Shown here: in pieces, positions 25,380-26,363 of the stretch
Layout: each line of letters begins with the position of its first letter
How positions within the stretch are numbered: the first letter of the stretch is position 1
Assembly: GCF_003002825.1 (NCBI RefSeq)
Contig: NZ_PVTE01000001.1
Coordinates: forward strand, 124,001-188,000
DNA: 64,000 nucleotides
DNA from: Spirosoma oryzae
GTDB taxonomy: Bacteria; Bacteroidota; Bacteroidia; Cytophagales; Spirosomataceae
Reading direction: 5' to 3'
Program-made: the position numbers and the translations under genes
The notes under the pieces: model-generated
Seen by the model: only the letters and a program-made list of their open reading frames with translations
Told to the model about the DNA's origin: nothing
Databases searched by the model: none

Positions 25380-25386
25380 CGCACGG

Positions 25387-25417
25387 TTGATCGACTCCGC
25401 TAAAGGCGTTATCTTTG
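25387..25417 (+). promoter_or_regulatory. Promoter of the guanidine exporter operon
   Basis: TTG at 25387-25389, a 20-bp spacer and TATCTTTG at 25410-25417 fit the Bacteroidota -33/-7 consensus. Transcription should start a few bases downstream, at the foot of the leader hairpin described next, leaving a leader of about 100 nt. Confidence 0.7.
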
Positions 25418-25453
25418 CTGGCGATACCGCCACGTAGTTGGTTGTATCGCCAG
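25418..25453 (+). other. 5' leader hairpin before the riboswitch
   Basis: Perfect 10-bp arms CTGGCGATAC and GTATCGCCAG enclose a 16-nt loop. There is no T-tract after it, so it is unlikely to terminate transcription; it may protect the RNA 5' end or help the following two hairpins fold. A terminator for the preceding gene is less likely as the promoter lies before it. Confidence 0.6.
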
Positions 25454-25455
25454 CA

Positions 25456-25501
25456 GGAGGACGACCTCCCCCATAGTGGGATACCAATCCGGGACGGCCC
25501 G
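25456..25501 (+). promoter_or_regulatory. Guanidine-II (mini-ykkC) riboswitch candidate
   Basis: Two hairpins carry the ACGR loops that define this class: GGAGG-ACGA-CCTCC (25456-25469) and CGGG-ACGG-CCCG (25490-25501), joined by a 20-nt linker. In the known class the two loops pair through their CG bases when guanidinium binds, and the second hairpin frees the ribosome-binding region. Here the second hairpin ends 20 nt before the ATG of an SMR exporter of the guanidinium type, exactly the expected gene. A promoter lies immediately upstream. Search with Rfam RF01068 would settle it. Confidence 0.85.
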
Positions 25502-25521
25502 ATCGAACCACGGTCAGCGTC

Positions 25522-25839
25522 ATGTCCTGGATTTATTTGTTGTTGGCGGGGTTACTGGAAGTTGTCTGGGCCTCGTTCATGAAGCAATCAGCGGGGTTTA
25601 TCCGGCTTGTCCCCTCCATCATCACTGTTGTTGCCCTGATTGCCAGCTTTGCGCTGCTGGCGCTGGCGATGCGTACATTGCCCCTCGGTACCGCCTACAC
25701 GATCTGGACGGGAATCGGAGCGGTCGGGGCCTTTATCGTGGGTATAGTCATATTCGGCGAACCCATCAACGCCACCCGCCTGATCGCGGCCACTTTGCTG
25801 ATCGCCGGGCTGGTACTCATGAAACTAGCTGCCAAATAA
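25522..25839 (+). CDS. gdx: Guanidinium exporter, small multidrug resistance family (Gdx/SugE)
   Basis: A 105-residue protein with four transmembrane helices. It opens MSWIYLLLAGLLEVVWA with the essential Glu13 and has the Gdx/SugE hallmarks GTAYTIWTGIGAVGAF and FGEPINATRL, and lacks the EmrE-type pattern. These dual-topology dimers exchange guanidinium for two protons and work as one-gene transporters, consistent with the single copy here. The guanidine-II riboswitch candidate in the leader supports the assignment strongly. A GNAT acetyltransferase gene follows after 2 nt and should be on the same transcript. Confidence 0.93.
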   Translation: MSWIYLLLAGLLEVVWASFMKQSAGFIRLVPSIITVVALIASFALLALAMRTLPLGTAYTIWTGIGAVGAFIVGIVIFGEPINATRLIAATLLIAGLVLMKLAAK

Positions 25840-25841
25840 CA

Positions 25842-26363
25842 ATGAATACAATAGCCATTCGTAAAGCTGAACTGGGTGATCTGGCTGCGGTGCAGGAAAT
25901 CGCACGCGCGACCTTCTTCGAAACGTTTGCCGCCACCAACACGGAAGCCGACATGCGGCACTACCTGACTGAGAAGTTTAGTGATGCGACTGTTTCAGCA
26001 GAGTTGAATCACCCTGATTCGTCGTTTTTCATTGCCTGGGCAGACGAAACGCCGATTGGCTACCTGAAGATCAACACAGGACCGGCGCAGACTGAACCGC
26101 AGGGTGACACCGCCCTCGAAATTGAGAGGATCTACGTCCGAAACGCATACCACGGCAAAAAGGTAGGGCAACTCCTGTATGAGCAGGCCCTGGTCAGTGC
26201 CCGCCAGCAAAACAAGACGCAGCTCTGGCTTGGTGTCTGGGAAGAAAACCCCAGGGCGATTCGGTTTTACGAGAAGAACGGTTTCGTGGCGTTCGACAAA
26301 CACATCTTCCAACTCGGTACCGATCAGCAAACCGACATCCTGATGCGAAAAATACTCGCGTGA
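25842..26363 (+). CDS. GNAT family N-acetyltransferase, PaiA-like
   Basis: A 173-residue GNAT (PF00583) enzyme. The start at 25842 is chosen because it lies 2 nt after the exporter stop; the frame upstream runs through the exporter gene. It has FFETFAATNTEADMRHYLTEKFS, typical of the PaiA-type spermidine/polyamine acetyltransferases, the beta4 strand ALEIERIYV, acetyl-CoA loop YHGKKVGQLL, and the C-terminal ENPRAIRFYEKNGF. Being tightly coupled to the guanidine exporter it is probably under the same riboswitch. An amine substrate such as a guanidine-derived or polyamine compound is inference from context only. Confidence 0.85.
   Translation: MNTIAIRKAELGDLAAVQEIARATFFETFAATNTEADMRHYLTEKFSDATVSAELNHPDSSFFIAWADETPIGYLKINTGPAQTEPQGDTALEIERIYVRNAYHGKKVGQLLYEQALVSARQQNKTQLWLGVWEENPRAIRFYEKNGFVAFDKHIFQLGTDQQTDILMRKILA

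Follow-up and report, generated by a model that had tools for sequence, protein, structure and literature searches.

A guanidine-II riboswitch upstream of gdx in Spirosoma, with predicted gating of the start codon and no Shine–Dalgarno sequence

The window analysed here is a stretch of 64,000 nt from Spirosoma oryzae, and the features described below all lie on its forward strand. A promoter element of the Bacteroidota −7 type, TATCTTTG, occupies positions 25410–25417; the consensus for such elements is TAnnTTTG, and no sigma-70 consensus promoter was found at the locus. Behind it come a 5′ hairpin, P0 (25420–25451), and the two hairpins of a guanidine-II riboswitch, P1 (GGAGG-ACGA-CCTCC, 25456–25469) and P2 (CGGG-ACGG-CCCG, 25490–25501), joined by a 20-nt linker (25470–25489) that opens with a small hairpin of its own, CCCA-TAG-TGGG (25470–25480). 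A spacer of 20 nt (25502–25521) then leads to the ATG, at 25522, of the exporter gene gdx (25522–25839), and this is followed by the gene of a GNAT acetyltransferase (25842–26363). The ACGA and ACGG loops, the length of the linker and the distance to the ATG are exactly as the first-pass annotation had described them, and the host, which it took to be Cytophagales-like, does belong to that order (genus Spirosoma).

The gdx product, an SMR protein of 105 aa, scores 123.2 bits against the SugE model NF008512, just below the curated cut-off of 126, versus at most 76 bits against other SMR models. The best matches in the PDB are two SMR entries (E 1.2e-30 and 6.1e-30), which we take to be Gdx proteins, compared with E 4.2e-15 for EmrE. 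Five residues that presumably characterize Gdx, E13, W16, S42, Y59 and W62, are all present and identical to those of the top PDB match. The Gdx features claimed for this protein on first inspection are borne out, and it is nearer to Gdx/SugE than to the EmrE type, a putative, Gdx-like guanidinium exporter. The acetyltransferase, which starts 2 nt past gdx, is PaiA-like (NF053587, 176.5 bits, cut-off 250) and is likely to be part of the gdx operon. Genes for PaiA-like acetyltransferases also lie behind gdx at 12 of the 30 other Spirosomataceae riboswitch loci, two of them as partial matches; the 71 proteobacterial loci gave none at E 1e-5. Such a neighbour suggests, as a possibility, that acetylation of guanidine or of a polyamine is tied to export. 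A gene of the same kind also stands behind a riboswitch-free gdx, that of L036.

Guanidine-II riboswitches are built from two GC-rich hairpins with ACGR loops and a linker of 7–40 nt (linker range from PMC7544219), a description that fits the hairpins and the 20-nt linker of the window. With cmscan and Rfam release 15, RF01068 matches positions 25453–25502 of the + strand of the window with 35.8 bits, above the gathering cut-off of 32 (E 0.0017), and it is the single match with E ≤ 0.001 in the 6.57-Mb genome (E 4.1e-5). The stability of the aptamer stretch alone is unremarkable, being no better than that of shuffled sequences (z −0.81), so the evidence for the aptamer is its motif, its place and its conservation. 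All 33 loci that were fetched for an RF01068 match, 31 from Spirosomataceae and two from other Bacteroidota, contain an SMR gene, and in 32 of these loci P2 ends 16–24 nt upstream of the SMR start. In the remaining one, L008 (genome G152), P2 and the ATG are 66 nt apart and three extra P2-like hairpins follow P2 in tandem; their loops, AAGA, ATGA and AAGA, do not have the ACGR needed for binding. Among 42 distinct Bacteroidota aptamers, changes on both sides of a pair are seen at P1 pairs 2–5 and P2 pairs 3–4, and a small linker hairpin alike to that of the window is found in 39. When arms are swapped between leaders, P1 is significant in Spirosomataceae and the near-invariant P2 is not, and the arms of the linker hairpin are equalled by 0/2000 swaps in Proteobacteria and by 253/2000 in Spirosomataceae. 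One aptamer, L117, has an ACGC loop. The guanidine-II riboswitch upstream of gdx is genuine, a member of a class already known; the Rfam search and the conservation of loops and stems in relatives, both proposed as checks when the motif was noticed, agree on this.

Of the 222 Spirosomataceae genomes searched, 30 have a match to RF01068, above the cut-off in 26; they represent 9 of 36 genera. Samples of the order, class and phylum, which overlap with each other and with that of the family and were searched with strict filters that miss weak members, gave 20/390 (every one Spirosomataceae), 1/375 (the window genome) and 3/395 (two outside the class), respectively. The riboswitch is thus used by a Cytophagales genome, as the first-pass annotation had inferred, and is patchy and rare in wider Bacteroidota samples. 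A literature search that covered parts of the sources and not the founding papers of the class found no report of guanidine-II from Bacteroidota; its presence there is not claimed as a first report. A family of environmental bacteria is added to those that seem to encounter guanidine. A protein search of the 222 genomes gave 46 SMR genes with at least 60% identity, the next standing at 48%. The ACGR pair motif precedes 43 of these close Gdx genes, recognized by Rfam at E ≤ 0.001 in 31 cases and by eye in 12, of which seven reach E ≤ 0.5 in cmscan and none the cut-off. It is absent before the other three close genes (L114, L119 and L126), before five more distant SMR genes of Spirosomataceae and, by pattern search, before 60 further SMR genes (65 of 69 SMR places with <60% identity were fetched). 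At L114 (G084), a close gdx, the riboswitch has been lost and the start AGUC-ATG-TCT-TGG retained; the leader is identical to that of L036, from Dyadobacter sp. CY323. The leaders of G197 and G187, of the same genus as the window, are those of Spirosoma profusum and S. endophyticum. L002 (G051, contig C15) is the second guanidine-II switch of its genome; the first codons of its gdx are out of frame with the rest in the alignment, which may reflect decay of the copy or an error in sequencing. The comparisons below use the 43 Spirosomataceae leaders, from which the loci outside the class (L032 and L033) are excluded, and 61 of the 71 proteobacterial loci, ten having been discarded, among them loci with variant or truncated aptamers.

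Folding predicts that P2 competes with the start of gdx. In the predicted OFF hairpin of the window (25486–25533), which excludes P2, positions 25486–25495 make ten consecutive pairs with 25524–25533, and 25496–25498 pair with 25519–25521, which leaves A and U of the start codon bulged. The fold of 25486–25536 has an energy of −22 kcal/mol (z −3.06), equalled by 2 of 200 shuffles. In ligand-free ensembles of the 43 leaders P1 forms with a median of 0.99, P2 with a median of only 0.01. The OFF helix exceeds three expected pairs in 33 of these leaders, which are related to each other so that counts among them are not independent, and in 30 of the 61 proteobacterial leaders; being predicted there too, the helix is not peculiar to hosts without a Shine–Dalgarno (SD) sequence. 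Its mean in Spirosomataceae is 5.75 pairs versus 3.11 with a shuffled P2–ATG segment and 4.39 with swapped leaders, and in Proteobacteria 3.40 versus 2.03 after synonymous recoding, 1.40 shuffled and 2.61 swapped. With P1 and P2 locked (forced to form, their loops left open, as a proxy for the ligand), the median pairing of positions −3 to +6 falls from 0.69–0.73 to 0.37–0.42 in Spirosomataceae, with a drop in 36–41 of the 43 leaders depending on settings, and from 0.56–0.59 to 0.51–0.53 in Proteobacteria, in a model that ignores transcription speed and proteins. The helix is not formed in ten of the 43. In seven leaders (L004, L017, L019, L120, L124, L127 and L128) P2 stands at 0.22–0.99 without ligand, and these may switch by other means; in L127 folding pairs the linker with the stretch 3′ of P2. 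The apex of the OFF structure in the window is a further hairpin, P3 (GATCG-AACCA-CGGTC, 25501–25515), at a site that in Proteobacteria houses the SD. Swapped arms of P3 do as well as its own in 13/2000 cases in Spirosomataceae and 1/2000 in Proteobacteria. P3 was rejected as a universal hairpin, its folding z being near zero (mean −0.24) and its occurrence limited to some leaders.

In the guanidine-II class, guanidinium is bound in the ACGR loops of P1 and P2, which dock with each other through these loops, and the hairpins at 25453–25502 are expected, from their motif, to do likewise. We propose that without ligand P2 would be open, and that its 5′ arm, together with the loop bases AC, would pair with codons 2–5 and the G of the ATG. 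GRC, which comes next in the P2 loop, would pair with the three bases immediately upstream of the ATG, so that the start codon would be buried. Guanidinium would keep P2 closed and so free the start codon. An SD would play no part in this, consistent with a phylum whose mRNAs lack one.

Control might instead be exerted on the transcript. Poor translation without guanidine would then allow Rho or RNases to shorten the message, P0 would set its stability, and the start helix would be either the first step or irrelevant. Rho-dependent 3′ ends are reported in the E. coli sugE 5′ UTR (PMC7815308), and the form of P0 is strongly conserved. In the window this hairpin folds with −19.3 kcal/mol (z −4.99). 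Its arms are matched far beyond swaps between species in Spirosomataceae (0/2000; 123/2000 in Proteobacteria), although its sequences are unrelated across the family. A TAnnTTTG element lies 25–50 nt upstream of P1 in 31 of the 43 leaders, and the sequence behind it folds more tightly than that at 13 further sites of this kind in the genome (p 0.017). Our guess is that P0 is a hairpin that stabilizes the 5′ end of the mRNA. No intrinsic terminator was found in 25380–25900, however, and an effect on the transcript leaves the complementarity to the start of gdx unexplained; we hold it to be unlikely.

That complementarity could also be a by-product without function, handed down with an ancestral proteobacterial leader and a conserved Met-Ser-Trp-Ile start, on top of an aptamer that is real. 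Part of the OFF helix is indeed set by the conserved Met-Ser/Ala-Trp start, the recoded Spirosomataceae controls still making 2.37 pairs. The sequences are related, the helix extends to proteobacterial leaders as given above, and it shows no covariation: 155 of 2000 swap permutations (run without L008) were as good as the leaders' own pairing, and the purine of the P2 loop does not covary with position −2 (p 0.14). Yet pairing exceeds that after synonymous recoding in 34 of the 43 Spirosomataceae leaders. The Ser-2 codons are UCY in 33 of 33 cases, whereas UCY makes up 13% of Ser codons in own-genome stretches, an approximate share as frames were called by length. Relative to Proteobacteria, Ser has replaced Ala: 30/39 distinct Spirosomataceae leaders have U at +4, versus 2/54, and 31/39 have G at −3, versus 15/54. 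The 57 SMR paralogues without a riboswitch (the 60 less three without an aligned start codon) lack the complementarity. The duplex of the start with the P2 arm has a mean energy of −5.9 kcal/mol in these paralogues and −11.6 kcal/mol in the riboswitch leaders; UCY is used in one of their six Ser-2 codons, and G at −3 together with Y at −1 occurs in 14 of the 57, compared with 34 of the 43 riboswitch leaders. A functionless origin of the pairing is rather improbable.

Translational riboswitches are usually explained by the hiding and exposure of an SD. For guanidine-II the usual account is likewise SD release (PMC12186494, PMC9094411, PMC7544219): the linker and the P1 3′ arm would act as an anti-SD that masks a ribosome-binding sequence at about −12 to −8 until the ligand releases it. 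It is in keeping with this account that CCUCCCCC of the P1 3′ arm and linker is retained in most leaders. However, no more than 4 of the 43 Spirosomataceae leaders have an SD-like sequence of four or more bases at −18 to −4, whereas 59 of the 61 from Proteobacteria do, and the mean energy of the duplex with the anti-SD is −2.6 versus −9.3 kcal/mol. The leader of the window has no SD-like 4-mer for the ligand to expose; such exposure is a mechanism proposed for the class and not part of its sequence definition. In own-genome stretches 1 of 77 genes has such a 4-mer by a simple gene-start rule; at the proteobacterial loci the rule detects one in just 7 of 43 genes, and on that side it is a weak control. 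A pattern for the 3′ end of 16S rRNA had no match in the assembly. Bacteroidetes are described as having no SD sequences and as tuning initiation by structure in the start region (PMC6847099). The duplex of the P1 3′ arm and linker with −16 to −4 is weak (−2.21 kcal/mol; −7.00 in Proteobacteria) and no better than when swapped (590/2000), and P1 is already formed without ligand. The usual account is inapplicable as it stands, since Spirosomataceae leaders are mostly without an SD, and we think it quite improbable here. A pairing of the P1 loop and 3′ arm (GACCU) with AGGUC before the start was considered and rejected, with 0.00 pairs on average in the ensembles. The folding model used does not reproduce SD gating in Proteobacteria, where SD pairing is 0.72 free and 0.68 locked and drops by more than 0.2 in 11 of 61 leaders. 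Finally, chance or relict hairpins that have lost guanidine sensing, a reading for which the shuffle-like folding and the ACGC loop of L117 might be cited, are negligible as an explanation in view of the Rfam score, the gene context, conservation across nine genera and compensatory changes. Because the phylum does not use the sequence on which ribosomes dock, the switch probably covers and uncovers the start codon itself.

A tree of Gdx proteins, built from 124 rows and 105 columns with named Bacteroidota loci omitted, bears on the history of the unit. Gdx of Spirosomataceae groups with that of Proteobacteria in a single clade (SH-aLRT 99), separate from five other SMRs of Spirosomataceae and from the Gdx of L032 (G634) and L033 (G712). 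Most forks within the clade are unresolved, and long branches join at its base. The riboswitch–gdx unit, shared with Proteobacteria, has probably passed between phyla, in one or more transfers and in either direction. L032 and L033, from Bacteroidota outside the class, carry guanidine-II riboswitches of 46.1 and 42.8 bits with Gdx proteins only 48–50% identical to that of the window. These are a separate lineage; neither GGAG nor AGGA was found near their starts.

Taken together, we put at roughly 60% the reading in which the guanidine-II riboswitch of Spirosoma turns on translation of gdx by gating the start codon without an SD, in a unit probably transferred between phyla. Conservation, codon choice and folding energies favour direct gating, and covariation of the helix lends it no support. 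Somewhat short of an even bet is a wider view, in which ligand binding and exposure of the start are one event, residue 2 (Ala to Ser, always UCY) is tuned to the RNA, and pairing with the start is perhaps the original mechanism of gdx-type switches, the anti-SD being secondary. In the same partial literature search, start-codon gating of guanidine-II was not found. The novelty lies in the expression platform: the absence of an SD and the predicted gating of the start codon make a variant worth testing. A phylum that keeps riboswitches without SD sequences needs another handle for them, and this leader of ~100 nt is a candidate. Gating of the start codon predicts that synonymous changes of codon 2 will have effects.

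The handle that the switch would use is one already described for SD-less initiation in Bacteroidetes, in that structure at the start tunes initiation (PMC6847099). The tuning reported there is genome-wide, in Flavobacterium johnsoniae, with no ligand switch, and F. johnsoniae favours A at −3, whereas Spirosomataceae leaders mostly have G (34/43). For the guanidine-II riboswitch of Gloeobacter violaceus, the authors of its structure suggested a stem that shares bases with both P2 and the ribosome-binding site and precludes the folded switch (PMC5486947). The proposed target in that case is the ribosome-binding site; in Spirosoma it would be the start codon and codons 2–5, with no SD. The closest known system is the gdx/sugE riboswitch of E. 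coli (RF01068), which has the same two ACGR hairpins and the same target gene. Its leader has a GGAG SD, unlike most of those in Spirosomataceae, which also differ in a longer helix between P2 and the start and in the 5′ hairpin P0. One aptamer and one gene in two phyla, with and without an SD, thus offer a natural contrast, which bears on the unsettled mechanism of guanidine-II switching in E. coli. In a cesium-resistant E. coli a 20-bp deletion of −30 to −11, removing P2, makes gdx constitutive, an effect that the authors attribute to exposure of the SD (PMC13064478). In the E. coli K-12 gdx leader, the GGGAC of P2 also folds onto the start and the Ser-2 codon, if more weakly (start paired 0.42). 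The P2 strand would then be the repressing strand in E. coli too, and pairing with the start may be old, retained and lengthened in Spirosomataceae without the SD.
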